64,000 nucleotides of DNA. Source: Sinorhizobium fredii NGR234. GTDB taxonomy: Bacteria > Pseudomonadota > Alphaproteobacteria > Rhizobiales > Rhizobiaceae. The DNA lies in assembly GCF_000018545.1 (NCBI RefSeq), contig NC_012587.1, forward strand, positions 2,666,001 through 2,730,000, read 5' to 3'. Below the pieces are notes generated by a model. That model was not told the DNA's origin and did no database searches. It worked only from the letters and a program-made list of their open reading frames with translations. A program made the translations under genes and the position numbers. Positions 46,210-64,000 of this stretch are shown one piece after another (the first letter of the stretch is position 1; every line of letters starts with the position of its first letter).

Positions 46210-48267
46210 TCAGCCTCTCGTCTTTGCCACCATCGTCAGCACGTCGTACCCGGCAACGGTCGCGCCCGTCTGGTTGGTGACGCGGCAGTCCCAGCGCACC
46301 TCGCCATGCTCGGCATTGATCCGCGGATTGATCTCCTTGCAGGTGAGCCGGACCTGTAGCGTGTCGCCGGGATAGACCGGCGTCAGTAAGCGCAGATTGT
46401 CGACGCCATAATTGGCCAGCACCGGCCCTGGTGCCGGGTCGACGAAGAGGCCGGCCGCGAAGGAGACGATCAGATAGCCGTGCGCGACACGTCCGTCGAA
46501 GAACGGATTGGCGCGTGCGGCTTCCTCGTCCATGTGGGCATAGAAGGTATCGCCGGTGAAACTGGCAAAGTGCTCGATATCTTCGAGCGTCACCGTGCGG
46601 GTCGCGGTCACCAACTGGTCACCGATCCGAAGCTCGGCAAGCGACTTGCGGAACGGATGTTCTCCGTCGACACGCGCCTCGGCGCCCTCTACCCAGCGGC
46701 CGGTAACCGCCGAAAGCAACGATGGCGCACCCTGGACGGCGGTGCGCTGCATATAATGCTTGACGCCGCGCATCCCCCCAAGCTCTTCGCCGCCGCCGGC
46801 CCGACCCGGCCCGCCATGGACGAGCCCAGGCAGCGGCGAACCGTGCCCGGTCGAAGACTTCGCGCTCCGGCGATTACCGATCATCACGCGGCCGTGGAAC
46901 GGCGCGATGCCGAGCACCAGCTCCTCCGCAATGCGAGCGTCGTTGGTGAAGACGGAGGTGACGAGGCTGCCCTTGCCGCGCTTCACGAGCTCGATCGCCT
47001 CGTCCGCCGTGTCGTACGGCATGACGGTGCTGACCGGACCGAACGCCTCGACATCGTGCACCGCCCCGGCCGCGGCTGGCCTGTCGCAATAGAGGAGAAC
47101 CGGATTGAGGAAGGCGCCCGCTTCCGGGTCACCCGACACAACCAGTGCGCTTGAGGGGTCGCCGACGACGATCTCCGCATCGGCGGCGAGATCGCGGAGG
47201 CGAGCCCGCACCTCCTCGCGCTGCCCGAGGCTTGCAAGCGGTCCCATCTTGACGCTCTCGTCGGCGGGGTTGCCGAGGGCGACCTTGCCGAGCCGCTCGC
47301 CGAGCGCGGCGATGAGCGCATCGCAATGGGCGCGCGGAGCGATGACGCGGCGGATGGCGGTGCATTTCTGCCCGGCCTTCGCCGTCATCTCGCGGGCGAC
47401 CTCCTTGACGAAGAGTTCGAACTCCTCCGTTCCGGGACCCGCGTCGTGACCGAGAACGGCCGCGTTGAGGCTGTCGGCCTCCATGGTGAAGCGCACGGAA
47501 TTCTCGACGATCGCCGGATGCGTCTTCAGTTTGCGCCCGGTCACGGCCGAGCCCGTGAGAGTGACGACGTCCTGACTGTCGACATGATCGAGGAGATCGC
47601 CGATCGAGCCGCAGACAAGCTGCACGGCACCTTCCGGCAAAAGGCCCGTCTCCACTATCCGCCGCACCATAAGCTCGGTGAGGTAGGCGGTCTGGCTCGC
47701 CGGCTTCACGATCGCCGGCATGCCGGCCAAGAGCGTCGGGGCGAGTTTCTCGAGCATGCCCCAGCAGGGGAAGTTGAAGGCGTTGATGTGGATCGCCACG
47801 CCTTCGAGCGGCGTCAGGATGTGCCGGGCCGAAAACGTCCCGTCGCTCGACAGGGTCTCGACGTCGCCGTCGACGAGCACGCGGGTATTCGGCAGTTCGC
47901 GCCTGCCCTTCGAGGCATAGGAGAACAGCGTGCCGATGCCGCCTTCAATGTCGATCCAGCTATCCGTGCGGGTGGCGCCGGTGGCCGTGGAGAGCGCATA
48001 GAACTCGTCCTTGCGCTCCATCAGCGCCTGGGCGAGCGCCTTCAGCATCGCCGCCCGCTCATGGAACGACATGCGACGGAGCGCCGGGCCGGCCTTATCG
48101 CGGCCATAGGCGCGTGCGGCGGCAAAGTCGATACCGGTGGAATCGACCAGCGCCACCGGGGCGCCGGTCGCGGCATCGAGCAAGGCCACGCCTTCCTTCG
48201 CACCCCTCGTCCAGACGCCGCCGACATAGCTTTCGAGCCGGCGCGGGCGGTCTGCCATTGCGTTCAT
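46210..48267 (-). CDS. paaZ: PaaZ, bifunctional oxepin-CoA hydrolase / 3-oxo-5,6-dehydrosuberyl-CoA semialdehyde dehydrogenase
   Basis: 685-residue fusion of an N-terminal aldehyde dehydrogenase (about 1-525: catalytic glutamate in [13 protein letters not shown], cysteine in [10 protein letters not shown]) and a C-terminal MaoC/hot-dog hydratase (about 540-685, with [15 protein letters not shown] and [10 protein letters not shown]). It opens the oxepin ring and oxidises the aldehyde. GGAAG precedes ATG 48267. It is last in the leftward paa operon, 15 bases after the PaaC-family paralogue. Confidence 0.95.
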
Positions 48268-48282
48268 CGCGACTTCCTTCCG

Positions 48283-49074
48283 TCAGTTCAATTTCAGTGC
48301 GGCAAGCTCAGCGTCGATCGCCGCCTGCCATTCGGCGAGCAAAGTCTCATTGGGCGTGTGGCGGAGACCGAGACGGGCGAGCGTCTCGTAGCGCGCCGAG
48401 CCGGCAAGTCCGAAACTCGCCGTCACCCGCGGCCGCCAATAGGAAACCGCTTCCCGCGCCGCGCGCCGCCCCTCCTCCGACGCGGCGATGCGCAGCAGTC
48501 CCTCGACCCCGAGCTCGGCGTGGCGCGCCTCGCGCGGCAGGATCGCCCGGAACACTTCGGCGAGCGGCTGGTAGGAGACGCGCGCCAGTTCGCCAAGCTG
48601 GATGGCGACCGCCCTGCCCATCAGCACGTTCATGACGACCGCGTCGACCCAACCTTGGAGCGGGTAGTGCAGCACTGAAAGCCGCATATCGCCGCCCCGG
48701 CGCTCCGCGCCGATATCGGCATCGCGGGGAAGCCTGGCGGCCCAGGGATGGTGGACCGCATAGCGGGCCGTATCGGCTCCGAAACTGCCCATGATCTCGA
48801 GCACCCTTCCGGCGTGATCGGCTTTCTCCAACACAATCCGCGCCGCCGCGATGCGTTCCTTGATCCCCGGGGCATCGTTGATGACATCGGCAAAGCCGGC
48901 CGAACCGGCGAGTTCGCTGTCGACGAAGCTCGCCATCAGCCGCAACAGCTCGCCGCGATAGCGGGGCGGCACATTGTCCGGCGAGGTAAGCACGCCGCCC
49001 TGGGCGAGGTAGTCCTCGATCGGCATCGTGTCGAACATCGAACCGGAATTTGAACCGGACTTTGAACCGGACAT
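48283..49074 (-). CDS. PaaA/PaaC-family paralogue (extra phenylacetate ferritin-like protein)
   Basis: 263-residue ferritin-like protein of the phenylacetic-acid catabolic family, beside the standard paaA and paaC copies. It begins with an SGSKSGSNSGS repeat encoded by three 12-base units. The second helix pair has an E-x-x-H motif (PREARH), while the first reads LEKADH and lacks the exact spacing of PaaA, so a full di-iron site is doubtful. The start at 49074 follows GGAGGAAGCC. It lies between paaE and paaZ. A structural or regulatory subunit is likely. Confidence 0.75.
   Translation of the reverse strand: MSGSKSGSNSGSMFDTMPIEDYLAQGGVLTSPDNVPPRYRGELLRLMASFVDSELAGSAGFADVINDAPGIKERIAAARIVLEKADHAGRVLEIMGSFGADTARYAVHHPWAARLPRDADIGAERRGGDMRLSVLHYPLQGWVDAVVMNVLMGRAVAIQLGELARVSYQPLAEVFRAILPREARHAELGVEGLLRIAASEEGRRAAREAVSYWRPRVTASFGLAGSARYETLARLGLRHTPNETLLAEWQAAIDAELAALKLN
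49036..49071 (-). repeat. 3 x 12-base tandem repeat inside the PaaC-paralogue gene
   Basis: Three units of the type TCCGGTTCAAAG/T follow the start codon directly and encode SGSK, SGSN and SGSM. The third unit is diverged. This is slippage-prone DNA that lengthens a disordered N-terminus. Confidence 0.85.
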
Positions 49075-49098
49075 GGCTTCCTCCCGGCGGTCGGCCGC

Positions 49099-50175
49099 TC
49101 ACTGGTCGTAGCTGACGACGATGCGGTCGCTCAGCGGATAACACTGGCAGGTCAGCACATATCCCTGTTCGACCTCGTAATCCTCAAGCGCATGGTTGGT
49201 CTCCATCTCCACCTCGCCCTCGATCACCTTGGCGCGGCAGGTGGAACAGACGCCCGCCTTGCAGGCGTAGGGCGCGTCCATCCTGTTTTCGAGTGCCGCT
49301 TCGAGGAGGCTCTGCCCCTCTTTCGGAAAGCTGAAGTTGCGCGTCGTGCCATCGAGGGTGACGGTCGCCTCGCACGTTGCGCGCCTGTCGGCACTGTCAG
49401 CGCTTACCACCTTGCGACGCGCAAGGCCGGGCTGCGAGGAGGCGAACAGCTCGAACTTGATCTGCTCGTCGCGAAGGCCGTGCGCGCGAAGCGCCGCGGC
49501 GATCGCCAGCATCATCGGCTCCGGACCGCAGATGAAGACGGTGTCGACCGACTTGAGGTCGATCCAGCTGCGGAACAGCGCCTCGCATTTCTCCGCGTCG
49601 ATCCGTCCGGTGAAGAGGTCGATATCCTGGGCTTCGCTTTCGAGGACATACAGTGCCGCAAAGCGCCCGAGATGGAGGTTCTTGAGGTCTTCGAGCTCCT
49701 CGCGGAACATGATCGAGCTAACGTGACGGTTGGCATAGACCAGCGTGAACTGCGCCCGCGGCTCGCGCGCAAGCGTCGTCTTGATGATCGACAGGATCGG
49801 CGTGATGCCGCTGCCGCCGGCAAAGCCGAGATAGTGTTTTGCCACCTCGGGCTCGATCGGCGTGAAGAAGGCGCCCATCGGCGGCATCGCTTCCAGTGTC
49901 TCGCCCGGCTTGAGCTCCTCGTTGATCCAGGTGGAGAAGCAGCCGCCGTCGACCCGCTTGATGCCGACCTTCAGTACGCCTTCGTCCTTTCCGGCGCAGA
50001 TCGAATAGGAGCGGCGCAGTTCCTCACCGTCGAACCGGCGGCGGAATGTCAGATATTGCCCTTGCGTGAAATCGAAAGCGGCCCGGTCCTCCTCGCGTGG
50101 CTGAAGCGTGATGACCACGGCATCGCGGGTTTCGCGCCGGACCTCGGTGACTTGAAGAGGATGGAATCGTGCCAT
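49099..50175 (-). CDS. paaE: PaaE, phenylacetyl-CoA epoxidase reductase
   Basis: 358-residue reductase that passes electrons from NADPH to PaaA. The N-terminal FAD domain has RRSYSIC, the NAD domain has GFAGGSGITPILSII and FICGPEPMM, and the C-terminal plant-type [2Fe-2S] domain has CKAGVCSTCRAKV plus a distal cysteine (LTCQC). It follows paaD by 29 bases. Confidence 0.95.
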   Translation of the reverse strand: MARFHPLQVTEVRRETRDAVVITLQPREEDRAAFDFTQGQYLTFRRRFDGEELRRSYSICAGKDEGVLKVGIKRVDGGCFSTWINEELKPGETLEAMPPMGAFFTPIEPEVAKHYLGFAGGSGITPILSIIKTTLAREPRAQFTLVYANRHVSSIMFREELEDLKNLHLGRFAALYVLESEAQDIDLFTGRIDAEKCEALFRSWIDLKSVDTVFICGPEPMMLAIAAALRAHGLRDEQIKFELFASSQPGLARRKVVSADSADRRATCEATVTLDGTTRNFSFPKEGQSLLEAALENRMDAPYACKAGVCSTCRAKVIEGEVEMETNHALEDYEVEQGYVLTCQCYPLSDRIVVSYDQ

Positions 50176-50204
50176 TTAAGCGAGCCTCACTCCTGGCATT
50201 TGCG

Positions 50205-50729
50205 TCAGATGCACTTGAAATAGTCGAAGGGTTCGAGACAGTCGCGGCAGCGATAGTTCGCCTTGCAGGGCGTCGAGCCGAACTGGCTGATCTTCTCGGT
50301 CCGGGTGGAACCGCATCGGGGACAGGCAACCGTCAGGTTTGAGCCGCTGGAAAGGCGCTCGATCCGCTTCAGGAGCCGGCCATCGGCAGCGGTGCCGTCG
50401 ATCGGCGGCGCGATGCCATAGGCATTGAGCTTCCGGCGCGCCTCGGTGCTGATCCAATCCGTGGTCCAGGCCGGCGAGAGCCGACGTTCGAGCCGGACGC
50501 TTTCGATCCCCTTGTCGTTCAACGCCTGTTCGATATCGAGGTTGATGGCCGTCGTGGCCGGGCAGCCCGAATAGGTCGGCGTCACCGTCACCACCAGCGT
50601 ATCGCCGTCCCACGCGACATCCCGGACGATGCCGAGGTCGGTGACCGAGACGACAGGGATCTCGGGGTCCGGCACCTGCGCCAGCCAGTCCCAGATATCC
50701 TTGACCGAGGGATGTGCCGCAGCCACCAA
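50205..50729 (-). CDS. paaD: PaaD, Fe-S assembly factor for the epoxidase
   Basis: 174-residue MIP18/DUF59-type protein: DPEIPVVSVTDLGIVRDV and TYSGCPATTAIN with the conserved cysteine, and a C-terminal zinc-ribbon-like segment CPRCGS...CKANYRCRDCLEPF. It assists iron-sulfur or di-iron maturation of the PaaABCE complex. GTG at 50729 follows GGAGGCG. Confidence 0.93.
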   Translation of the reverse strand: MVAAAHPSVKDIWDWLAQVPDPEIPVVSVTDLGIVRDVAWDGDTLVVTVTPTYSGCPATTAINLDIEQALNDKGIESVRLERRLSPAWTTDWISTEARRKLNAYGIAPPIDGTAADGRLLKRIERLSSGSNLTVACPRCGSTRTEKISQFGSTPCKANYRCRDCLEPFDYFKCI

Positions 50730-50741
50730 CGCCGCCTCCCC

Positions 50742-51527
50742 CTACCAGGTGGCGCCCGGATAGGCGCGCTGCAGGAACTGCAACTCGGCGAGGATATAGC
50801 CGAGTTGCTCCGTATGGATGCCGCGCTTGCCGCCCTTGTGCATATGGCCGTCGGCCGGCCTTTTCAGCGTCGCCACCGAAAGCGCTTCGGCGACCAGCGC
50901 ATCCCACTCGGCCTTCAGGCTTTGCGGCTCGGGGGCCACACCGGCCGCGGCAAGAGCCTCGTCGGAGGTCTCGCCGACGAACATTTCCCCGGTGTACGGC
51001 CAAAGGTCGTCGAGCGCCTCCTGCATACGGGCGTGGCTTTCCGCCGTTCCGTCGCCGAGGCGGATCACCAGATCGCGGCTGCGTTCAAGGTGGTAGGACA
51101 CTTCCTTCGACGCCTTCTCGGCGATTTCCGCAATACGCACGTCGGACGAGGCGCGCAGCGCATTCAGGATGACGTAATGCCACGCGTCGAACAGGAATTG
51201 GCGCATCATCGTCTTGCCGTAGTCACCGTTCGGCCGCTCGGTAAGCAAGAGGTTACGAAATTCGCGTGCGTCGCGGAGATAGGCGAGATCGTCCGCGCTG
51301 CGGCCACCGCCCTCGACCTCGCCGGCAAGTCCGAGCCAGAGCTGCGTCTGGCCAATGAGGTCGAGCGCCGTGTTGGCAAGCGCAATGTCCTCCTCGAGTG
51401 CCGGCGCATGGCCGCACCATTCCGAGAGCCTATGGGCGAGGATGAGCGCATTGTCGCCCGTCCTCAGCAGGAATTCGAAAAGTGCGGCCCGGTCGACGGC
51501 CGCTTCCCCTATGATCGCGGTCGTCAT
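50742..51527 (-). CDS. paaC: PaaC, phenylacetyl-CoA epoxidase structural subunit
   Basis: 261-residue ferritin-like helical protein (LLRTGDNALILAHRLSEWCGHAP, EKASKEVSYHLERSRD) that forms a heterodimer with PaaA and has no complete metal site. It overlaps the paaB stop by one base (TGATG), so the ATG at 51527 is clear. Confidence 0.94.
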   Translation of the reverse strand: MTTAIIGEAAVDRAALFEFLLRTGDNALILAHRLSEWCGHAPALEEDIALANTALDLIGQTQLWLGLAGEVEGGGRSADDLAYLRDAREFRNLLLTERPNGDYGKTMMRQFLFDAWHYVILNALRASSDVRIAEIAEKASKEVSYHLERSRDLVIRLGDGTAESHARMQEALDDLWPYTGEMFVGETSDEALAAAGVAPEPQSLKAEWDALVAEALSVATLKRPADGHMHKGGKRGIHTEQLGYILAELQFLQRAYPGATW

Positions 51528-51811
51528 CACATGTGCCCCACTTCGTCGGGAATGTCGAAGAAGGTCGGGTGGCGGTAGACCTTGGAATTCGATGGTTCGA
51601 ACAGCGGGCCTTTCTCGGAGGGCGCGCTAGCGCTGATGTCGGCCGATCGCACGACCCAGATGCTGACGCCCTCGTTGCGACGGGTGTAGACGTCACGCGC
51701 GTTGTTGATCGCCATTTCCGCGTCCGGCGCATGCAGGCTGCCGACGTGGCGATGATTGAGGCCATGCTGGCCGCGGATGAAGACTTCCCAAAGGGGCCAT
51801 TCGCTGGACAT
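51527..51811 (-). CDS. paaB: PaaB, phenylacetyl-CoA epoxidase bridging subunit
   Basis: 94-residue protein starting MSSEWPLWEVFIRGQHGLNHRHVGSLHAPDAEMAI, the diagnostic PaaB sequence. It holds two PaaAC dimers together. It lies 27 bases after paaA and is coupled to paaC. Confidence 0.96.
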   Translation of the reverse strand: MSSEWPLWEVFIRGQHGLNHRHVGSLHAPDAEMAINNARDVYTRRNEGVSIWVVRSADISASAPSEKGPLFEPSNSKVYRHPTFFDIPDEVGHM

Positions 51812-51838
51812 CGTTTCTCTCTCCCAAATTCCTGCGCC

Positions 51839-52843
51839 TTATTCCGCAGCGGCCGATTTTTCGGCGCGGCGGGCCGAGGCCTTCTCGGCGTGCGCCGTCA
51901 GTCCGTCGCGGAACCATGCGCCGTCGTCCCAGGCCTTCCGGCGTGCGCCGAGGCGTTCAGCGTTGCAGAGGCCGTTGCCGGCGATCACCTCGAAGAACTC
52001 CTTCCAGTCCGGCTCGCCGAAATCGTAACCGCCCTTTTTCGCGTTCCATTTGAGGTCCGGGTCTGGGACCGTCAGGCCGAGATAGTCCGCCTGCGGCGCG
52101 GTCTGATCGACGAACTTCTGGCGGAGTTCGTCATTCGAGTTCTGCTTGATTTTCCAGGCCATCGACTGGGCCGAATGGATGGAGGCATCGTCCGAGGGGC
52201 CGAACATCATCAGCGACGGCCACCACCAGCGGTCAAGAGCATCCTGCACCATCGCCTTCTGGGCCGGCGTGCCCTTCACCATCTTCGCGAGGATGTCGAA
52301 GCCCTGGCGCTGATGGAAGCTTTCCTCCTTGCAGATCCGGACCATGGCACGGGCATAGGGCCCGTAGGAACAGCGCTGCAGCGGCACCTGGTTCATGATC
52401 GCAGCGCCGTCGACCAGCCAGCCGATGGCGCCGATATCGGCCCAGGAGAGCGTTGGATAATTGAAGATCGACGAATACTTCGCCTTGCCGCTGTGGAGCT
52501 GCTCATACATCTCGTCGCGGCTGATCCCGAGCGTCTCGGCGGCGCAATAGAGGTAGAGTCCGTGGCCGGCTTCGTCCTGGACCTTGGCGAGCAGGATCGC
52601 CTTGCGTTCCAGCGTCGGCGCGCGGGTGATCCAGTTGCCTTCCGGAAGCTGGCCGACGATCTCCGAATGGGCGTGCTGGCTGATCTGCCGCACCAGTGTC
52701 TTGCGGTAGCCCTCCGGCATCCACTCCTTGGGCTCGATCTTCTGCCCGGCATCGATGCGCTCCTGGAAGGCGCGCTCCTCGGGCGCCATCTCATCGAGCG
52801 ATTTGACGCGGGCCGCGTCGGTTTTCACCATTTGCGCATACAT
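51839..52843 (-). CDS. paaA: PaaA, phenylacetyl-CoA 1,2-epoxidase catalytic subunit
   Basis: 334-residue ferritin-like di-iron subunit that epoxidises phenylacetyl-CoA. The iron ligands fit [13 protein letters not shown] and [13 protein letters not shown] (E-x-x-H twice), and [11 protein letters not shown] follows. GGAGGAGAG lies before the ATG, inside the tail of the thiolase relic. It is the first intact gene of the leftward paa operon. Confidence 0.96.
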
Positions 52844-52848
52844 GGGCT

Positions 52849-53241
52849 CTCCTCCGCCGGACGCGCTCGAGAATGATGGCGATGCCCTGGCCGACGCTGA
52901 TGGACATCATGCACAGCGCGTAACGGCCACCCCTGGCGATGACGCTGACAGACGGCCGTCGTCACCAGCCGCGCACCGCACATGCCGATCGGATGACCGA
53001 TCGCGATGGCGCCGCCGTGCGGAATCAGATGGGGCGCCTCATCGGCCAGGGCCGGAACGAGGTCGTCGGCGAAGACGCCGGCGTCGGCGCGACTGACGCC
53101 GAAATCCTCCGTAACATTGTCCGCCGTCTCCGGCATGGAATCAACACCGGCCGTCGCCTTGAGCCTTGGGCTGACGAAGGGCGCCTTCCCATATCCGCCA
53201 ATCCGGATGCGTAGCGCATCGCAGCCGAAAGTTTCGGACAT
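52849..53241 (-). pseudogene. decayed beta-ketoadipyl-CoA thiolase relic (paaJ/pcaF)
   Basis: A start with GGGAGGAAATGC before ATG 53241 leads into SETFGCDALRIRIGGYGKA, the thiolase N-terminus, then jumps to APFV, then to DSMPETADNVTEDFGVSRADAG and HGGAIAIGHPIGMCGARLVTTAV, the late catalytic-histidine region. After a frame change comes [23 protein letters not shown], the C-terminus. Several large in-frame deletions and a frameshift remove about two thirds of the gene. The final cysteine-containing motif (normally LCTMCI) is also altered. It occupies the first position of the paa operon. Confidence 0.85.
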
Positions 53242-53279
53242 GCATTTCCTCCCTACCGGGTCGGCCACTTTCATTAACC

Positions 53280-54159: not shown

Positions 54160-54309
54160 ACCCCTTCCCGGCAACCACCCATCGGGGCCGCGCCCGCGCT
54201 GCCCATCCGGCATTCGTTTCTGCCCGAGCGAGTGTTGTGCGGCGATGGCGCGAAAGGCAGCTTTGGCGTTGAGGAAACGCCGTCCGCGGACGCAGCCATT
54301 GGAGGAACG

Positions 54310-55497
54310 ATGTCAGGCTACAACCATCTCTTCATTCCGGGCCCCACCAACATCCCCGAGCAGATTCGCCAGGCGATGAACCTGCCGATGGAAGACATGC
54401 GGTCTCCCCGGTATCCGGAGCTTACGCTGCCGCTCTTCGCCGACGTCAAGAAGGTCTTCAAGAACCGGAACGGCCGCGTCTTCATCTATCCGTCGTCCGG
54501 CACCGGCGCCTGGGAAGCGGCGATGACCAACGTGCTCTCCCCCGGCGACCGGGTGCTGATGAGCCGCTTCGGCCAATTCTCGCATCTCTGGGTCGACATG
54601 GCCGAGCGCCTCGGCCTCGAGGTCGATTGCCTCGACCGGGAATGGGGCACCGGCGTGCCGGTCGACCTCTACACCGAACGGCTCGCCGCCGACAAGGCGC
54701 ACAGGATCAAGGCCGTATTTGTCACGCACAATGAAACCGCGACGGGCGTGACGTCGGATGTCGCCGCTGTGCGCGCCGCGCTCGACGCCTCAGGCCATCC
54801 GGCACTGCTCTTCGTCGATGGCGTCTCCTCGATCGGCTCGATCGACTTCCGCCAGGACGAGTGGGGCGTCGATTGCGCCGTCTCGGGCTCGCAGAAGGGC
54901 TTCATGCTGCCAGCCGGCCTCGGCTTCCTTTCGGTCAGCCAGAAGGCGCTCGAAGCTGCAAAGACCGCACGCCACATGCGCTGCTACTTCTCCTTCGAGG
55001 ACATGATCAAGACCAATGACACCGGCTATTTCCCCTATACGCCGCCGACGCAGTTGCTGCACGGTCTGCGTGCCGCGCTGGACGTGATTTTCGAGGAAGG
55101 CCTCGAAAACATCTTCGCCCGCCACCGTCACCTTGCCGACGGTGTCCGTGCCGCAGTCTCCGCCTGGGGCCTCAAGCTCTGTGCGACCGAGCCGAAGTGG
55201 TATTCCGACACCGTCTCGGCGATCCGCCTGCCGGAAGGCATCGATGGCGTCAAGGTCATCCGCCACGCCTTCGACACTTACAACACCTCGCTCGGCAGCG
55301 GACTCAGCAAGGTGGCGGGCAAGGTCTTCCGCATCGGCCATCTCGGCTCGCTCAACGAGGTCATGGTGCTCGGCGCCCTTTCGGCCGCCGAACTGACGCT
55401 GCTCGACTGCGGCGTGAAGATCGAGCCGGGCGCGGGCGTCGGCGCTGCGATCCGCCAGTTCCGCGCCGCCGCGACGGCGACCGCCAAGGCAGCCTGA
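54310..55497 (+). CDS. sgaA: serine-glyoxylate aminotransferase
   Basis: 395-residue class V PLP aminotransferase that converts serine and glyoxylate into hydroxypyruvate and glycine. The lysine that binds PLP is K196 in SGSQKGFML, and the N-terminal FIPGPTNIPEQIRQAMNLPMEDMRSP is typical of Sga. GGAGGAACG precedes ATG 54310. It is followed by mcl, mtkA and mtkB, the arrangement seen in serine-cycle methylotrophs and relatives. Confidence 0.93.
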   Translation: MSGYNHLFIPGPTNIPEQIRQAMNLPMEDMRSPRYPELTLPLFADVKKVFKNRNGRVFIYPSSGTGAWEAAMTNVLSPGDRVLMSRFGQFSHLWVDMAERLGLEVDCLDREWGTGVPVDLYTERLAADKAHRIKAVFVTHNETATGVTSDVAAVRAALDASGHPALLFVDGVSSIGSIDFRQDEWGVDCAVSGSQKGFMLPAGLGFLSVSQKALEAAKTARHMRCYFSFEDMIKTNDTGYFPYTPPTQLLHGLRAALDVIFEEGLENIFARHRHLADGVRAAVSAWGLKLCATEPKWYSDTVSAIRLPEGIDGVKVIRHAFDTYNTSLGSGLSKVAGKVFRIGHLGSLNEVMVLGALSAAELTLLDCGVKIEPGAGVGAAIRQFRAAATATAKAA

Positions 55498-55518
55498 GCC
55501 AGGCAAGGGGAGGAATTC

Positions 55519-56460
55519 ATGAGCCATACGATCAACCATCTCCGCCGGCTTCGCCTGCAGCGCAGCGAACTCGCCGTACCGGGCTCGAACCCCGAGATGA
55601 TCGAGAAGGCCGCCAGTTCGGATGCCGACTACATCTTCCTCGACATCGAGGATGCGGTGGCGCCGCCGGACAAGGAGCGGGCCCGCGCCAATATCGTGCA
55701 GGCGCTCAACCAGATCGACTGGCGCGACCGCGGCAAGACGATCTCGGTCCGCATCAACGGGCTGGACACCCACTACATGTATCGCGACGTCGTCGACCTC
55801 ATGGAGCAGGCCGGCGACCGGATCGACACGCTGCTCGTGCCGAAAGTCGGCGTGCCGGCCGACCTCTACATGGTCGAAGCCATGGTCAACCAGATCGAGA
55901 TCGCCAAGGGCTACAAGACCCGCGTCGGTCTCGAGGCGCTGATCGAGACGGCCCTCGGCATGGCCAATGTCGAGACGATCGCCGCCTATGGCGGACGCCT
56001 CGAAGCGCTGCATTTCGGCGTCGCCGACTATGCCGCGAGCCTGAAGGCCCGCACCGTCAATATCGGCGGCCTCAACCCCGACTATCCGGGCGACCAGTGG
56101 CATTTCGGCCTGTCGCGCATGACCGTCGCCTGCCGCGCCTACGGCCTGCGCGCCATCGATGGGCCGTTCGGCGATTTCTCCGATCCGGAAGGTTACAAAG
56201 CTGCAGCACGCCGCGCCGCCGCCCTCGGTATCGAGGGAAAATGGGCAATCCATCCGAGCCAGATCGCGCTCGCAAATGAAATCTTCTCGCCGCCGGAAAA
56301 GGAGGTCGACCGCGCCCGCCGCATTATCGAGGCGCTGAAGGTGGCCGAGAGCCAGGGCAAGGGTGCCGCCTCGCTCGACGGCAAGATGATCGACGCCGCC
56401 TCCGAGCGCATGGCGCGCAATGTGCTCGCCACCCATGAAGCCATCACCGCCGGCCGCTGA
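55519..56460 (+). CDS. mcl: malyl-CoA lyase
   Basis: 313-residue CitE-type TIM-barrel lyase that splits L-malyl-CoA into acetyl-CoA and glyoxylate. Conserved pieces include RRLRLQRSELAVPGSNPEMIEKA, FLDIEDAVAP (magnesium ligands D/E), VRINGLDT, and the late AIDGPFGDFSDPEGYKA and GKWAIHPSQI. Length and motifs match bacterial Mcl. It stands between sga and mtkA with short spacers. Confidence 0.94.
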   Translation: MSHTINHLRRLRLQRSELAVPGSNPEMIEKAASSDADYIFLDIEDAVAPPDKERARANIVQALNQIDWRDRGKTISVRINGLDTHYMYRDVVDLMEQAGDRIDTLLVPKVGVPADLYMVEAMVNQIEIAKGYKTRVGLEALIETALGMANVETIAAYGGRLEALHFGVADYAASLKARTVNIGGLNPDYPGDQWHFGLSRMTVACRAYGLRAIDGPFGDFSDPEGYKAAARRAAALGIEGKWAIHPSQIALANEIFSPPEKEVDRARRIIEALKVAESQGKGAASLDGKMIDAASERMARNVLATHEAITAGR

Positions 56461-56472
56461 GAGGAGGAAGAC

Positions 56473-57657
56473 ATGGACATTCACGAATACCAGGCCAAGG
56501 AACTTCTTTCCCGCTACCAGATCCACATCCCGCGCGGCGGTCTCGCCTACAGCCCCGAACAGGCGGCCTATCGTGCCAGGGAGATCGGCGGCGACCGCTG
56601 GGTGGTCAAGGCGCAGATCCATTCCGGCGCGCGCGGCAAGGCGGGCGGCATCAAGCTCTGCTCGACCGATCACGAGATCGTCGAGGCCGCCGACTCCATG
56701 CTCGGCCGGACGATCGTGACGCACCAGACCGGACCGCAGGGAAAACTCGTCAGCCGCCTCTATGTCGAGGAGGCGATGGATATCGCGCGCGAGATCTATA
56801 TCGGCTTCGTGCTCGACCGCAAATCCGAGCGGATCATGATCGTCGCCTCGTCCTCGGGCGGCATGGAGATCGAGGAAATTGCCGAGGCCGAGCCGGATTC
56901 GATCATTCGCGCCACCGTCGATCCGGGCGTCGGCATGCAGGACTTCCAGGCCCGCGAGATCGCTTTCGGACTCGGCATAGACAATGCCCTGATCGGCCGT
57001 GCCACCCAGACGCTGCTCGGCTGCTATCGCGCCTTCGTCGACTATGACGCCTCGATGCTGGAGATCAATCCGCTGGTCGTCACACGCCGCGGCGATCTCG
57101 TTGCGCTCGACGCCAAGATGAGCTTCGACGAGAATGCGCTCTTCCGCCGGCCGCATATTGCCGAGATGCGCGACAAGAGCCAGGAGGACCAGCGCGAGAC
57201 CTATGCATCCGACCGCGGCCTCTCCTATGTCGGGCTCGATGGCAATATCGGCTGCATCATCAACGGTGCGGGTCTGGCCATGGCGACCATGGACATGATC
57301 AAGATCGCCGGCGGCGAGCCCGCGAACTTCCTCGACATCGGCGGCGGCGCCTCGCCCGACCGCGTGGCGAAATCCTTCCGCGCCGTACTCACCGACAGAC
57401 AAGTCGAGACTATCCTCGTCAACATCTTCGCCGGCATCAACCGCTGCGACTGGGTGGCCGAGGGCGTGATCAAGGCACTGAGGGAAGTCGGCGTGCCGGT
57501 GCCGCTCGTCGTCCGCCTCTCCGGCACCAACATGGAGGAGGGTCGGCGCATCCTCGCCGAGTCGGGCGAAAACATCATCGTCGCGGAAACGCTGGCCGAA
57601 GCTGCGGACAAGGCAGTCGCGGCATGGCGTTCGTTCACCGCCAACAAGGCTGCTTGA
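56473..57657 (+). CDS. mtkA: malate-CoA ligase beta subunit
   Basis: 394-residue ATP-grasp protein related to succinyl-CoA synthetase beta ([23 protein letters not shown]). Conserved MtkA segments include [17 protein letters not shown] and [20 protein letters not shown]. With mtkB it makes malyl-CoA from malate and CoA at the cost of ATP. Standard succinyl-CoA synthetase is the alternative, but the linkage to mcl favours malate thiokinase. Confidence 0.92.
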
Positions 57658-57668
57658 GGGAGGCTCCC

Positions 57669-58568
57669 ATGTCCATTCTGCTCGACAAGAACACCCGCGT
57701 CATCGTTCAGGGCTTCACCGGCAAGATCGGCAGCTTTCACGCCGAAGACATGAAGCGCTACGGCACCAATGTGGTCGGCGGCGTCACCCCCGGCAAGGGT
57801 GGCCAGGCGCATCTCGGCATGCCGGTCTTCAACACGGTAAAGGGCGCCGTGCAGGAAACCGGCGCCGATGCCTCTATCATCTTCGTGCCGCCGCCCTTTG
57901 CGGCCGACTCGATCATGGAGGCGGCGGATGCCGGCATCCGGCTCTGCGTCTGCATCACCGACGGCATTCCCTCCCAGGACATGATCAGGGTCAAGCGATA
58001 CATGCGGCGCTACCGCTTCGAGGATCGCATGACCCTGATCGGGCCGAATTGCGCCGGCATGATCACGCCCGGCGAGGCGATGATGGGCATCATGCCGGGC
58101 TCGATCTACCTGCCCGGCCGCATCGGCATCGTCGGCCGCTCGGGGACGCTCGGCTATGAGGCCGCAAGCCAGATGAAGGCGCTCGGCGTCGGCGTGTCGA
58201 CCTCGATCGGCATCGGCGGCGACCCGGTCAACGGTTCGTCCTTCAAGGACATGCTGGAACTCTTCGAGAAGGATCCGGGCACGGATGCGGTGCTGATGAT
58301 CGGCGAGATCGGCGGCCCGCAGGAGGCGGAAGCAGCGCTTTGGGCGCGCGACCACATGAAGAAGCCGCTGATTGCCTATATCGCCGGGCTCTCGGCTCCG
58401 AAGGGGCGCCGCATGGGGCATGCCGGCGCGATCATCTCCGCCTTCGGAGAATCGGCCCAGGAAAAGGTCGAGATCCTGAAGAGCGCCGGGGTCACCATCG
58501 TGCCGACGCCGTCTTCCTTTGGGGAGACCGTGGCCGACGTCTTGTCGGCCATGAGCAAGGCAGCCTGA
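57669..58568 (+). CDS. mtkB: malate-CoA ligase alpha subunit
   Basis: 299-residue CoA-binding ligase subunit: VIVQGFTGKIGSFHAEDMKRYGTNVVGGVTPGKGG, then ITDGIPSQDM, then the phosphohistidine loop GRRMGHAGAI with H251. Partner of mtkA, 11 bases downstream of its stop. ATG 57669 follows GGGAGGCTCCC. Confidence 0.92.
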   Translation: MSILLDKNTRVIVQGFTGKIGSFHAEDMKRYGTNVVGGVTPGKGGQAHLGMPVFNTVKGAVQETGADASIIFVPPPFAADSIMEAADAGIRLCVCITDGIPSQDMIRVKRYMRRYRFEDRMTLIGPNCAGMITPGEAMMGIMPGSIYLPGRIGIVGRSGTLGYEAASQMKALGVGVSTSIGIGGDPVNGSSFKDMLELFEKDPGTDAVLMIGEIGGPQEAEAALWARDHMKKPLIAYIAGLSAPKGRRMGHAGAIISAFGESAQEKVEILKSAGVTIVPTPSSFGETVADVLSAMSKAA

Positions 58569-58572
58569 GTGG

Positions 58573-58594
58573 GGCTGCACGCGTTTTTGCAGCC
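58573..58594 (+). other. hairpin after mtkB
   Basis: GGCTGCA (58573-58579) pairs with TGCAGCC (58588-58594) around an eight-base loop with four T residues at its end, directly after the mtkB stop. It may dampen readthrough into the BCCT gene; no terminal T run. Confidence 0.4.
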
Positions 58595-58734
58595 GGCGCT
58601 GGCCGGAGGCGCAGCGCGCTTGATCACATAAGAAAACAATCAAAACGGCCGCGATCCGCCGGACAGGGTCGCATGAGTGGGACAGCGGCCCGGATTGGAG
58701 CGGGCCAGCGCAAAATCAACTGGGAGGACCAACA

Positions 58735-60297
58735 ATGCAGCAATCACGACCTAGTGGGATAGATCCGGCCGTCTTCTGGCCGGCGATGTTCATCATCCTG
58801 GGGTTTGTCGGTTGGGGAACGATATTTCCCGACAACCTGTCGTCGATCTCGAAGGTGGTTCTCGACACGATCATCGACGATTTCGGCTGGGGCTTCGTGG
58901 TCTCGTCGGCCGGTTTCCTGATTTTCGCCCTCTTCCTGGCCGTGAGCCGCCTCGGCAAGATCCGGCTCGGACAGGACGACGAGCGGCCGGAATTCCGCAC
59001 CGCATCCTGGATCTGCATGATGTTCAGCGTCGGCATGGGTATCGGGCTGATGTTCTGGGGCGTCGCCGAGCCGATCTATCATTTCGCCAGTCCCCCGCAC
59101 GGACAGGCAGCGCCGAAGAGCCTGGAAGCGGCTCTCGTCGCGATGAAATATTCGTATTTCCACTGGGCGCTGCACCCCTGGGCCATCTATGCGGTCGTCG
59201 GCCTGGCGATCGCCTATTTCACCTTCCGGAAGGGCAAGCCGAACCTGATCTCCGCCGCCTTCACGCCGATCCTGGGAGAGGCGGCGAGCGGCCCGATCGG
59301 CAAGGCGATCGACGTGCTTGCCTTGATCGCGACGCTGTTCGGGACTGCCACATCGCTCGGTCTCGGTGCCCAGCAGATCAACAGCGGCATGGATTTCCTC
59401 TGGGGCACCGGTGTTTCGAATGGTATCGCGCTGACCATCATCGGCGTCATGACCGTGCTGTTCATCCTCTCGGCCGTCTCGGGCGTCGGCAAGGGAATTC
59501 AGTTTCTCTCCAACATGAACATGATCGTTGCCGTTCTGCTATTGGCCTTCCTGCTCTGCATCGGCCCGACGATCTTCATCTTCAACACCTTCGCGGAATC
59601 GCTCGGCTTCTATCTCAGCGACATCGTCAACATGTCGTTCCGCACCGCGGCCTTTAGCGACGGCAAATGGCTCGGCAGCTGGACGATCTTCTACTGGGCC
59701 TGGTGGGTTTCCTGGGCGCCCTTCGTCGGCGTGTTCATCGCCCGCATCTCGCGCGGCCGTACGATCCGCGAATTCGTCATCGGCGTTCTGTTGATCCCGA
59801 GCGGCGTCACCTTCATCTGGTTCACGATCATGGGCGGCACTGCGCTCCATTCCGAACTCTTCGGCGCTGGCGGCATCGTCGATGCGGTCAACAACCAGGG
59901 CGCGGCTGTCTCGCTCTTTGCACTGCTCGCGCAATATCCGTTCGCCTGGCTGACGTCGCTGATCGCCATTTTCCTCGTCGCGATCTTCTTCATCTCGGGC
60001 GCGGATGCAGGTTCGGTGGTGATGGGAATGCTGTCGTCGCGCGGCACGCTCGAGCCGAAACCCGGCGTCGTCGTGCTCTGGGGTGTGCTGGCCGGCGCTT
60101 CGGCCTCCGTGCTGCTCGTCATGGGCGGGCTTCAGGGCCTGCAGACCGCCTCGATCATCGCCGCGGCTCCATTCCTGCTGGTCATGGTCGGCCTCTGCGT
60201 CTCGCTGTGGCACGCCCTCCTCGACGAACTCGAGGAGGGACGGTCGTCGCGAAGGGCGCCGGCTTCCGCTACCGCCGCCGATGCCGCCGGGCCTTGA
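58735..60297 (+). CDS. BCCT-family transporter (betaine/choline/carnitine type)
   Basis: 520-residue secondary transporter with about 12 helices. The family features are the MGIGLMFWGVAEPIYHF stretch in helix 3 and the tryptophan-rich WAWWVSWAPFVGVFIARISRGRTIREF in helix 8. The N-terminus is short and there is no long regulatory C-terminal tail, so it is likely a substrate-uptake rather than an osmosensing type. GGGAGGACC precedes the ATG. It lies between mtkB and the fusion gene; the substrate is a trimethylammonium compound or another small amino acid derivative by family only. Confidence 0.92.
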   Translation: MQQSRPSGIDPAVFWPAMFIILGFVGWGTIFPDNLSSISKVVLDTIIDDFGWGFVVSSAGFLIFALFLAVSRLGKIRLGQDDERPEFRTASWICMMFSVGMGIGLMFWGVAEPIYHFASPPHGQAAPKSLEAALVAMKYSYFHWALHPWAIYAVVGLAIAYFTFRKGKPNLISAAFTPILGEAASGPIGKAIDVLALIATLFGTATSLGLGAQQINSGMDFLWGTGVSNGIALTIIGVMTVLFILSAVSGVGKGIQFLSNMNMIVAVLLLAFLLCIGPTIFIFNTFAESLGFYLSDIVNMSFRTAAFSDGKWLGSWTIFYWAWWVSWAPFVGVFIARISRGRTIREFVIGVLLIPSGVTFIWFTIMGGTALHSELFGAGGIVDAVNNQGAAVSLFALLAQYPFAWLTSLIAIFLVAIFFISGADAGSVVMGMLSSRGTLEPKPGVVVLWGVLAGASASVLLVMGGLQGLQTASIIAAAPFLLVMVGLCVSLWHALLDELEEGRSSRRAPASATAADAAGP

Positions 60298-60460: not shown

Positions 60461-60581
60461 CATTGTCGCCGGAGCAACTACCCGATCCCGGGATCGAGAT
60501 TGGCACATTCGGCCACAACGAATGTCCGTTTCAACGATCACCAACGACGGGAACGGTCCTACCCCAACACAGAGGTTAGAA

Positions 60582-63551
60582 ATGATTTCCGACTCAGACC
60601 TTTTCGCTCATCGGCTGGAAGCAATGAAGCGTACCGAAGGCGGCGCCCCTTCGCTGCCGACAAATCCGTTCTTCGGAGTCGGCCCAATCACCGATGCAAC
60701 GACGGACGAGGTCGACAGCAGGCTGCGGCGGTATGAATTCGACAAATGGATCGAGAGCACCTACCGGAAATACGATGACACCGGCAAGGATATCGGCGCG
60801 TTCACAACCGCTGAGCTTTCGCGCAGCATGCACCGCGGTTACCCGGCGGATAAGATCCTGCTTGATATGATGCGGGCCATCCATCGGTATTTCGCATTCC
60901 CCAAGTCGAACAGGATAGCAGTGGGCCTGGGGGGCGGACACAGCGGCTATACCGTGTGCGTGCAGCATCTCCTCAATGCAAATGACGCGAGCCAGCGGGT
61001 CTACGTGGACACGCCGCGCCCCGAAAGTGATGGCGCCGGCGGTTCCGGTTTCTTCAGGCAATCCTGGGCAACCCAGCTCATCGAGATGCATCGCTTCGCG
61101 GAGAAGGGCGACGAGAGCAGGATTCACTTTGCGAAACGCGAGGGGGCAATCCCCTCGGCAAAGGCGCTCGCCGAACTCGGCGTCTCGGTCTTCATTGGCG
61201 TCGGTCACGAAACAACCGGTGCGAATTCCTATACCAAGGAGGAGATTGCGGAACTTCTGGCATGGCTGGACGGCGATCCGGAAAACCGGCATGCCGTGTT
61301 CGACGCGACGTCCATGCTCGGGGCGATGCCTTGGGATCCCGAAGTCGTCCGGGCGGTGATGGCCAAGTGCTGCTTGTTCATGCCGTTCCAGAAAGCGATT
61401 GGCGGCATATCCGGCTACTTCGTCGCATCCTTCACGCCGGCGGCTCTGGCATTGATCGAGCGCAACCAGAGCAATCCGTCCTGGGCAATCCCGAGGCAGC
61501 TGAAGATTGCGCCGCCAATCAATCCCCGGCAGCCGTTCAGCAGCAAGCGGTCCGTCGATGCCGGCCCGTTCTACGACGCCGAGGAAGACAAGATGCTCGG
61601 CGGTGTCATCAACACCTATAGCGCCCTGGCGTTTGCCGAGACGACCTTTGGACTCCTGCAGACCGAACGGCGCGTCGGCTCGGTCGACGAATTGAACAAG
61701 CGCTCGGCCACGAACCGCAGGCTGGTAAACGAATGGGTGGACCGCAACCGGCTGTTTAGCCTGGTCGTGGAAGACGAGGAGCGGCGCGGCGCGGCGGTCA
61801 CGCTGTTGAAGGTCAATGACGGCGGCATCTCATCGTCTGATCTCCATGCGCGCATCATTGCAAGGTCGAAGCAGATCCTGGGCTACGAAGGAATTACCCA
61901 TCCGAACGGTGTCCATGAAAAAGGTCTGGATGCCGCGCGTTACGTGAACGCCTTCCCCGGCACTCCCGGTGATTATCGCGCCTGGATCGGCGGCATTCGG
62001 GAACCTGAGGATGTCATCGCACTGCTCGAGAACCTCAAATACGCCTATCTCCGGGCCAAGATCGTGGTCATCGAGGAAGAACTCGAGAGCAGAGGAAGCC
62101 GCGTCGATTACGACGAACCTGCGGGCGATGGCGCTGCGTCCGTGCGCGAAGGCACTTTCAAGGTGTTGATCGCCGATGCGATTGGCCTGCGCTTCAACGC
62201 GGCAGGCGGCCTCGATCACAGTGAATTGGCCGCATACATTTACGAAAAAGGCGGCGTGTTCCACGAAAACTCCGCGAACGACGTGAGCTCGGCCGAGGAC
62301 GGCAAGATCCATTTCTTCTACCGGCCCCACCTTAGCACCGCCGATGAGTTACTGGCTGAGGCGGGCGACGGCCAGTATGACGCGGTCATCGCGGCCGCAA
62401 CGTTCATCCCTCAGGGTGCGAAGTTCCGTCTCGGCGGTGTCCGCATCGGCACGGGCACCGGGAACATGGGATCGGCTTCCTGGGGCGGGCCGAATGGCGA
62501 GGGAGGCGAGGCCCCGCTGATGAACACGCCGGGCATCAACAGCCGGGCGACCGCGCAGATGGCGGTAAAGGCGCTTCTCAAGGTCCTGCCCGATCTGCCG
62601 GTGGAGGAGTTGCACGCCCGGGTCATCGGCGGTGACTTCGATACAGGCAAAAACCTGGCCGAATATCCGACCGAAAAGCTTGAAGGAAAGAGGATCGCGA
62701 TCCTCGGCTATGGCAACATTGGCCGGGAACTCGCACGCCTGGCGAAGGCGTTCCACATGGATGTTGTCGTCTATGCCCGACCGGCACATCGCGACAACAT
62801 CATCGCGGAAGGTTACGAGTACGCCGCTACTCCGGCGGAGGCCGCGGGTGGTTCGGACGTATTGTCGGTTCATCTGGGCCTCGGAAAACTGGATCCGGCT
62901 ACGGGGACGTTCTCCAATACCGGAGTCGTCGATGCCGAGGTCCTGTCCGCGTTGAACGACAAGGCAGTCCTGCTCAACTATGACCGCGGCGAGCTCGTGA
63001 ACGTGGCCGACCTGGACAAGGCATTGACATCCGGCAAGGTAAGGCACGCGGCAATCGACGCCGACATCTTCAAGACCTCGGACGGACCGAGCGGCCCGAT
63101 GAAGCCGTATCTTTCGCTTCTGCCGAAGCATGCCGGGAAGCTCGAACTCCTTCCGCACGCGGCCGCCGATACCGACCATCCGACCCGTGTGGCCGGGGCG
63201 AAGCAGGCTGTCGATCAGATCGTTGACGCGATACGCCTGCACTCGGTCACGAACCTCAAAGGTGATCTGCCCGCCGGCTATGTATCGCAAGGTGCGAGAA
63301 CGCCGTCGGGAATTGGGCCTGTCACGCGATCCGCTCTCAACCGTGTCGCCAATGACAAGAACCTTCTCGTCCAACTGCGGGATGTGAGCGAAAAGATAGC
63401 CGCGATCCTCGGAGCGCTCGATGCGGTCTCTGAAGATGCACACAAGGCCCGGATCGTCGAGCGCTATCGCTCACTGCTTGCAGAAAACGCGATGCTGCAA
63501 GGTCAGCTTCTGAAGTCCGCGGGTCTAGTGGCGCCTGCCGCCAAAGACTGA
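60582..63551 (+). CDS. fused class V aminotransferase / D-2-hydroxyacid dehydrogenase (SerC-SerA-like)
   Basis: 989-residue fusion. Residues about 1-495 form a class V PLP aminotransferase resembling phosphoserine aminotransferase: D241 (VFDATSMLG) for the pyridine nitrogen and K271 (MPFQKAIGG) for the Schiff base. Residues about 525-895 form a D-isomer-specific 2-hydroxyacid dehydrogenase, with NAD loop G709-G711-G714, substrate arginine R802 (NYDRGELVN) and catalytic H859 (LLPHAA). The usual glutamate near residue 830 is replaced by DADIF. There is no ACT domain; instead a helical tail of about 95 residues follows. ATG 60582 follows AGAGGTTAG. It could make serine from phosphoglycerate, or couple hydroxypyruvate reduction to transamination beside sga. 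Confidence 0.85.
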   Translation: MISDSDLFAHRLEAMKRTEGGAPSLPTNPFFGVGPITDATTDEVDSRLRRYEFDKWIESTYRKYDDTGKDIGAFTTAELSRSMHRGYPADKILLDMMRAIHRYFAFPKSNRIAVGLGGGHSGYTVCVQHLLNANDASQRVYVDTPRPESDGAGGSGFFRQSWATQLIEMHRFAEKGDESRIHFAKREGAIPSAKALAELGVSVFIGVGHETTGANSYTKEEIAELLAWLDGDPENRHAVFDATSMLGAMPWDPEVVRAVMAKCCLFMPFQKAIGGISGYFVASFTPAALALIERNQSNPSWAIPRQLKIAPPINPRQPFSSKRSVDAGPFYDAEEDKMLGGVINTYSALAFAETTFGLLQTERRVGSVDELNKRSATNRRLVNEWVDRNRLFSLVVEDEERRGAAVTLLKVNDGGISSSDLHARIIARSKQILGYEGITHPNGVHEKGLDAARYVNAFPGTPGDYRAWIGGIREPEDVIALLENLKYAYLRAKIVVIEEELESRGSRVDYDEPAGDGAASVREGTFKVLIADAIGLRFNAAGGLDHSELAAYIYEKGGVFHENSANDVSSAEDGKIHFFYRPHLSTADELLAEAGDGQYDAVIAAATFIPQGAKFRLGGVRIGTGTGNMGSASWGGPNGEGGEAPLMNTPGINSRATAQMAVKALLKVLPDLPVEELHARVIGGDFDTGKNLAEYPTEKLEGKRIAILGYGNIGRELARLAKAFHMDVVVYARPAHRDNIIAEGYEYAATPAEAAGGSDVLSVHLGLGKLDPATGTFSNTGVVDAEVLSALNDKAVLLNYDRGELVNVADLDKALTSGKVRHAAIDADIFKTSDGPSGPMKPYLSLLPKHAGKLELLPHAAADTDHPTRVAGAKQAVDQIVDAIRLHSVTNLKGDLPAGYVSQGARTPSGIGPVTRSALNRVANDKNLLVQLRDVSEKIAAILGALDAVSEDAHKARIVERYRSLLAENAMLQGQLLKSAGLVAPAAKD

Positions 63552-63647: not shown

Positions 63648-64000
63648 TCAGCTGGTCGCTCTCAACGACGTGCGGAATTGTTGGGGCGTGTCGGCGAATC
63701 TGCGGCGGAACAATCGGCTGAGATGCGATGCATCGCAGAAGCCGCTTTCGGCGGCAATCAAAGCGATTGACTTGTCTGTGTTTGCGAGCAGGTGGCGGGC
63801 CAGCAAAAGCCGCATATCGATAAAGGCGACCAGTGGCGAACTTCCGAGTTCCTCGCGGAAATGCCTTTCAAGCCGACGCTTTCCGACGTTGAGATGACTT
63901 GCGATTTCCGCAACAGGGAGCGGAGTGTCGAGGTTCTGCTGCATCAGCAGAAGCGCCTTCCTGACAAGCGGGTCCTTCGTCTTGAAATCGAGCGTAAGCC
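63648..64000 (-). CDS. AraC-family regulator, C-terminal DNA-binding part (5' end outside window)
   Basis: The visible 117 residues are the double helix-turn-helix of an AraC regulator: KDPLVRKALLLMQQNLDTPLPVAEIASHLNVGKRRLERHFREELG and IALIAAESGFCDASHLSRLFRRRFADTPQQFRTS. The layout (LVRKAL-x-LM...) is that of GlxA/GbdR/CdhR-type regulators, whose N-terminal domain is DJ-1-like and senses amines or amino acids. It is convergent with the fusion gene and may control it or the BCCT gene. Confidence 0.85.
   Translation of the reverse strand, partial: LTLDFKTKDPLVRKALLLMQQNLDTPLPVAEIASHLNVGKRRLERHFREELGSSPLVAFIDMRLLLARHLLANTDKSIALIAAESGFCDASHLSRLFRRRFADTPQQFRTSLRATS

Follow-up and report, generated by a model that had tools for sequence, protein, structure and literature searches.

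Architecture of the fusion gene

The DNA analyzed here, referred to as the window, is a stretch of 64,000 nucleotides from Sinorhizobium fredii NGR234 (contig NC_012587.1, positions 2,666,001 to 2,730,000). Near its 3' end lies a gene whose product joins a class V aminotransferase (AT) and a D-2-hydroxyacid dehydrogenase (DH) in one chain; this AT-DH fusion gene, its domains and its neighbors are compiled in Table 1. A longer reading frame of the gene opens at 59667, within the BCCT transporter gene, and most of the relatives in the alignment start at the ATG at 60582 or no more than 11 residues from it.

Table 1. Features of the fusion gene and its surroundings (positions in the window)
Feature	Position	Strand	Remarks
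AT-DH fusion gene	60582..63551	+	989 aa plus stop, by translation
AGAGG, possible ribosome-binding site	60571..60575	+	7-11 bases 5' of the ATG at 60582
SerC-like class V aminotransferase (AT) domain	60645..62060	+	aa 22-493; K271, D241, H84-R85, R466, A457, P459
Linker	62061..62150	+	aa 494-523; model confidence low over 512-523
D-2-hydroxyacid dehydrogenase (DH) domain	62151..63296	+	aa 524-905; PF02826; GxGxxG 709-714, A732-R733 after beta strand 2, R802, H859
Mostly helical tail	63297..63548	+	aa 906-989; structure model
Serine-glyoxylate/aspartate-glyoxylate aminotransferase-like gene (SGA/BhcA-like)	54310..55497	+	BhcA model 605 bits, cut-off 650
Malyl-CoA lyase-like gene (HpcH/HpaI)	55519..56460	+	Pfam/NCBIfam profile match
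Malate-CoA ligase subunit beta (MtkB)	56473..57657	+	726 bits, cut-off 604
Malate/succinate-CoA ligase subunit alpha (MtkA)	57669..58568	+	NCBIfam profile match
BCCT transporter, glycine-betaine type	58735..60297	+	638 bits, cut-off 650
GbdR-like AraC regulator, C-terminal part	63648..63998	-	begins outside the window; NCBIfam profile match

The sole Pfam match above cut-off was the NAD-binding domain PF02826 (residues 676-826, E 5.7e-25, 88.2 bits against a gathering threshold of 25.1), and by this score the DH half belongs to the D-2-hydroxyacid dehydrogenase superfamily. No Pfam model matched the AT half at an E-value of 0.01. Within NCBIfam, weak matches far below cut-off were obtained to phosphoserine transaminases (residues ~240-493) and to phosphoglycerate dehydrogenase (PGDH) and its kin (from residue ~645). 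Since the AT half returned nothing meaningful when its sequence was searched against the PDB and the 50 rows listed by Foldseek for the whole structure model were all dehydrogenases, the AT assignment rests on profile comparison and VIA-align.

The key residues named in an earlier note on this DNA are in place: D241, K271, the motif glycines G709, G711 and G714, R802 and H859 are each at least 90% conserved in 37 aligned rows. We take K271 to be the lysine that binds pyridoxal 5'-phosphate (PLP), H84-R85 to be a phosphate-binding pair of SerC and R466 to be the carboxylate arginine. Searches of the fusion in Pfam and NCBIfam reported no match to an ACT domain and most of the segment 906-989 is predicted to be helical, in agreement with the tail that the same note had placed in lieu of this domain. 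By profile and predicted structure, the N-terminal half is thus a distant SerC-type class V AT and the C-terminal half a DH with a helical tail.

Relation to the housekeeping serine enzymes

A search of the genome for separate serC and serA genes, which had been recommended beforehand, identified a true serC (699.7 bits) with serA (673.3 bits) behind it at C3:2884321-2887123, both above cut-off. As this pair has the same order as the two halves of the fusion, the AT-first arrangement is not the oddity it had been taken for. The fusion itself scored 39.8 bits against SerC_2 (TIGR01365, cut-off 448.2) and 65.9 bits against SerA (TIGR01327, cut-off 454). While the PLP lysine and the aspartate of SerC_2 are present as K271 and D241, the second phosphate His/Arg pair of SerC aligns to A457/P459 (in an alignment of 25% identity), both invariant in 20 rows. 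In the DH half, the IRS motif of SerA aligns to IAA (A604, A605) and the aspartate after beta strand 2 to A732, followed by R733.

Because separate serC and serA genes exist and the phosphate-site residues of both enzymes are partly lost, AT-DH is distinct from the housekeeping enzymes for serine. A second phosphorylated serine pathway, in which a phosphoserine aminotransferase would be fused to a phosphoglycerate dehydrogenase, is highly improbable in view of the profile scores, which fall far short of the SerC and PGDH thresholds, the phosphate-site losses in both domains, the separate serC/serA pair and the glycerate kinase links described below. A role in pyridoxine synthesis, akin to that of PdxB plus SerC, was considered as another candidate. 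In our searches of the open-access (PMC) literature, no paper describing this fusion came up.

Conservation and distribution

A species-level scan, with one genome per species, gave at least 80 pattern matches and 64 loci; L-numbers denote loci fetched from public genomes. Both domains were found in one open frame in 61 of the 64 loci at 58-96% identity (L043 being cut by a contig end and L054 matched to residue 912), which, together with the translation and the PF02826 match, bears out the fusion described in the earlier note. The remaining loci held the AT part only (L067), broken AT pieces (L070) or a weak DH match (L071). The ratio of nonsynonymous to synonymous substitution rates (dN/dS) of the fusion was 0.11 against L008, 0.09 against L049 and 0.09 against L011 (dS near saturation for the latter). 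The recurrence in one frame and these low ratios against the three relatives compared argue that the fusion is more than a product of chance.

Within the genus of the window, 29 of 33 genomes carry the fusion (among them the own genome and G009, where a contig end cuts the gene), and it was not found in G001, G017, G019 and G023. An even draw of the class yielded AT-half matches in 7 of 385 genomes, three of them (own included) at 63-100% and four at 32-33% identity. On these counts the fusion is patchy and alphaproteobacterial, as far as the searches reach. Common as the gene is in the rhizobia searched, it is annotated merely as an oxidoreductase: the listed full-length plasmid rows having an annotation read "NAD(P)-dependent oxidoreductase".

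Some deviating copies were observed as well. A Paracoccus AT without DH (L067:8028-11719, and L070) directly follows genes for an aspartate-aminotransferase-like protein and an RraA-like aldolase; a helical tail common to this AT-only protein and the fusion was examined by comparison and found unsupported. An Ensifer adhaerens plasmid copy (L077:11977-13725), annotated as hypothetical protein, stops at residue 582 inside the DH and is apparently truncated. A ClpA/ClpS/M20/His-ABC block adjoins the deep-branching copies L047, L051, L053, L054, L064 and L069 (annotated in L053, assigned by clustering in the rest); it was set aside as pathway context and read as a putative landing site.

The dehydrogenase module and glycerate kinases

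With a Shinella stand-alone DH as query and a threshold of E 1e-40, DH matches were obtained in 57 genomes (the own one among them) out of 394 in the family, and 40 stretches were fetched from matching genomes chosen by hand. Loci L008-L193 contained 135 DH-bearing frames, comprising 95 AT-DH, 38 DH alone and 2 DH-kinase fusions; this count includes genes fetched twice and leaves out eight (the window's own gene, duplicates, L073 and L079). The two exceptional frames, from L140 (5548-8007, minus strand) and L141 of one genus, encode proteins of 819 amino acids in which the DH is fused in frame to a C-terminal glycerate 2-kinase. The best model for the kinase part was NF041176 with 210 bits, under its equivalog cut-off of 550. 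DH frames of 820-834 amino acids were also seen in five more genomes of this genus.

Separate kinase genes lie 3' of the DH in L131, L132, L133, L135, L138 (gap of ~0.7 kb) and L142. When each gene is counted once and 3 kb or more of flank is required on either side, which places L131 with its shorter flank outside, a kinase is nearby in 7 of the 24 loci with DH only (a figure that covers the two fusions) versus 3 of 63 AT-DH loci; with duplicates kept, the figures are 7/24 and 3/68. The kinase was sought by tblastn with one sequence, by which distant kinases could be missed. The DH-only kinase loci are non-independent and fall into four arrangements (L131-133; L135/L142; L138; L140/L141). Among the AT-DH loci, the clearest case is L038, where a same-strand kinase that far exceeds the Pfam cut-offs for DUF4147 and MOFRL stands directly 3'; L019 has a broken kinase copy directly 3', and in L035 the kinase is ~8 kb away. 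With three MOFRL genes per 6.9 Mb taken as the density, the chance of a kinase per stretch of this size amounts to <1% (by arithmetic, not simulation). The own genome encodes three MOFRL glycerate 2-kinase candidates above cut-off, located away from the fusion.

These DH-kinase fusions and neighbors in relatives provide the best clue to the function and suggest a hydroxypyruvate-reducing role of the DH. Hydroxypyruvate is the compound at which an aminotransferase and a D-2-hydroxyacid dehydrogenase can meet; the product of the latter is the substrate of glycerate 2-kinase, and the usual amino partner of hydroxypyruvate is serine. As hydroxypyruvate joins both activities and the product fits the kinase, the sequence L-serine to hydroxypyruvate to D-glycerate would follow. 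Of the substrates considered in the earlier note, hydroxypyruvate is hence favored by the kinase fusions and neighbors, while phosphohydroxypyruvate has lost ground on the serC/serA evidence given above. It is also conceivable, albeit unlikely, that AT and DH act on another pair of amino acid and 2-oxoacid, e.g., one derived from a BCCT-imported betaine, with the kinase neighbors being secondary. Kinase neighbors do occur in a minority of loci, and the neighbors of DH-only genes are varied (a beta-keto-acid cleavage enzyme, an amino-acid ABC transporter, aldolases and a malate/L-lactate dehydrogenase-like gene); the in-frame DH-kinase fusion and the several separate arrangements of DH and kinase nevertheless indicate glycerate.

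A DH tree of 43 rows, hand-chosen from the 135 frames (duplicates included) and with a partly open backbone and four long-branch rows, rejected a single clade of all AT-DH rows (p-AU 6e-5), and its starred branches force at least four changes. A DAO/D-amino-acid-dehydrogenase-like gene occurs near DH-only genes (directly upstream in L130, two genes away in L142, by clustering only in L135) and represents a possible other source of the 2-oxoacid. We entertain, as a tentative view that falls short of even odds, a family of modular glycerate makers, in which the DH module would combine with swappable partners making hydroxypyruvate or using glycerate: a PLP-dependent AT by fusion, a flavin adenine dinucleotide (FAD)-dependent amino-acid oxidase-like protein by neighborhood and a glycerate 2-kinase by either. 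AT-DH would be its one-chain, channelled L-serine-to-D-glycerate member and offer rhizobia an exit for betaine-derived serine distinct from serine dehydratase. The Shinella stand-alone DH (L078:8689-13398) lies next to genes for a beta-keto-acid cleavage enzyme and an aminotransferase, related copies of which are found near the L019 fusion.

Genomic neighborhood of the fusion

In the window, a LuxR-type regulator gene is followed by the SGA-like, Mcl-like, MtkB, MtkA and BCCT genes and the fusion; Pfam/NCBIfam matches confirmed the neighbors reported previously (sga, mcl, mtkAB, BCCT and a GbdR-type AraC gene). At or past the window end stand two GbdR-like regulators and the formaldehyde dehydrogenase FdhA (707 bits, cut-off 637), as well as GbcA-like (519.8 bits, cut-off 670) and GbcB-like (368.8 bits, cut-off 500) genes, a pair that appears related to glycine betaine monooxygenase at scores below cut-off. 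A TctA-like permease gene, named by eye and unmatched in NCBIfam at E 1e-25, lies 3' of this pair (L194:7290-8825, minus strand). Positions 46210-53274 of the window presumably represent a cluster resembling that for phenylacetate degradation.

Of the 63 loci L008-L070, 12 have a BCCT relative close to the fusion. All of these 12 bear the title Sinorhizobium or Ensifer, and nine of them (L008, L015, L017, L019, L020, L022, L036, L049, L050) combine sga, mcl, mtkB, mtkA and BCCT. Across the 12 loci, the genes for the enzymes and the BCCT transporter share 88-99% identity with those of the window, and the LuxR and AraC genes 82-98% and 60-97%, respectively, where matched. The fusion itself is 70-72% identical, except in L008 (96%) and L049 (91%), and the allele of the window is nearer to some Mesorhizobium, Shinella and Paracoccus copies (74-82%). 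This looks like two diverged alleles (~71% identical) at one place in Sinorhizobium, represented by L015-L068 on the one hand and L008, L049 and the window on the other, from which we infer a replacement in place with selection probably keeping the function there.

Proposed function

We propose, at a probability of roughly 57%, that AT-DH is a one-chain, NADPH-linked enzyme converting L-serine via hydroxypyruvate into D-glycerate, thereby disposing of betaine-derived serine. The PLP domain would transaminate L-serine to hydroxypyruvate, the NADP(H)-type DH domain would reduce it to D-glycerate, and a glycerate 2-kinase encoded elsewhere in the genome would yield 2-phosphoglycerate. In S. fredii NGR234, the enzyme probably removes serine made from glycine and one-carbon units during the demethylation of betaine-like compounds. 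Both activity labels are functional guesses: hydroxypyruvate reductase is suggested by the kinase fusions and neighbors and by the putative cofactor site, serine aminotransferase by the DH partner. The opposite direction, with D-glycerate being oxidized to hydroxypyruvate and aminated to L-serine as a non-phosphorylated serine synthesis, would accord with the reversibility of both half-reactions, as generally known, and with the many loci where the gene is untied to betaine genes. It is nonetheless improbable, since the likely NADP-type cofactor site and the glycerate kinases beside DH favor reduction and the genome already has serC and serA.

Several observations weigh against the proposed conversion of betaine-derived serine to glycerate. 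A context of sga-mcl-mtkAB-BCCT was observed in Sinorhizobium/Ensifer alone; at other loci, the fusion has varying neighbors. In stretches of at most 10 kb, the fusion is accompanied by GbcAB-like genes in just two cases, the window's genome and L008 (S. fredii USDA 205), but not in the other 11 of the 12 BCCT loci, and by FdhA only in the window's genome and L068; because GbcAB and FdhA occur at so few loci, the betaine link holds firmly for the S. fredii type alone. No kinase was detected nearby in 60 of 63 distinct AT-DH and 17 of 24 DH-only genes, which counts against a fixed AT-DH/kinase partnership, and the equivalog cut-offs are reached neither by the GbcAB-like and BCCT matches nor by the kinase match in NCBIfam. 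Moreover, H84-R85 is kept, so that the substrate may yet be phosphorylated or otherwise anionic. As for the usual acid partner of the DH histidine, described earlier as missing, no invariant counterpart of the triad glutamate occurs in the 37 aligned rows; R802 and H859 are kept, and D828, with a conservation of at least 90%, is no more than a candidate for this acid residue. The SGA-like gene in the same cluster poses a puzzle for a serine-to-glycerate enzyme.

A further point against the proposal is that phosphoenolpyruvate carboxylase found no match in the genome, and the textbook serine cycle therefore looks incomplete. Passages of PMC12628762 report tested members of the genus as being without key serine-cycle genes; mcl and mtkAB relatives are nonetheless present in this genome and in the nine loci. 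Serine-cycle membership as a general role of the fusion was rejected on account of the context restricted to Sinorhizobium/Ensifer and the missing carboxylase match. The block from sga to BCCT (window 54232-60297) may serve glyoxylate use rather than this cycle.

If the proposed L-serine-to-D-glycerate conversion is true, AT-DH would constitute a one-protein route from serine to glycolysis and a new branch of hydroxypyruvate reductases, and would offer a direct test of betaine use by some rhizobia. The separable modules would permit comparing fused with separate forms.

Comparison with known systems

In the serine cycle, serine-glyoxylate aminotransferase and hydroxypyruvate reductase take serine to glycerate, i.e., the same two steps if the proposed function applies. 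That cycle employs two separate enzymes, with an aminotransferase from a different branch of class V, while here a separate SGA-like gene is present in addition. SerC_2 (TIGR01365; PDB 2fyf) shares the fold, the PLP lysine and aspartate, the H-R pair and the carboxylate arginine with the AT half, from which it differs by the second phosphate pair (A457/P459 in the fusion), the extra alignment segments of the fusion and the fused DH. Likewise, the PF02826 enzymes PGDH/SerA and glyoxylate/hydroxypyruvate reductase resemble the DH half in the NAD(P)-binding domain, the GxGxxG motif, the arginine and the histidine; compared with PGDH/SerA, the fusion is without the R/S phosphate residues, has Ala-Arg for the aspartate after beta strand 2 and no clear glutamate, and carries a helical tail in place of the regulatory domain. 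With regard to physiology, the closest likeness is the end of betaine catabolism in Pseudomonas and Vibrio, where, according to passages of PMC12093977, betaine-derived serine is disposed of in the context of BCCT and gbc genes, the Pseudomonas pathway ending with serine hydroxymethyltransferase and serine dehydratase. That route yields pyruvate, whereas the product proposed for the fusion is D-glycerate, and AT-DH could accordingly provide an alternative exit for betaine-derived serine.
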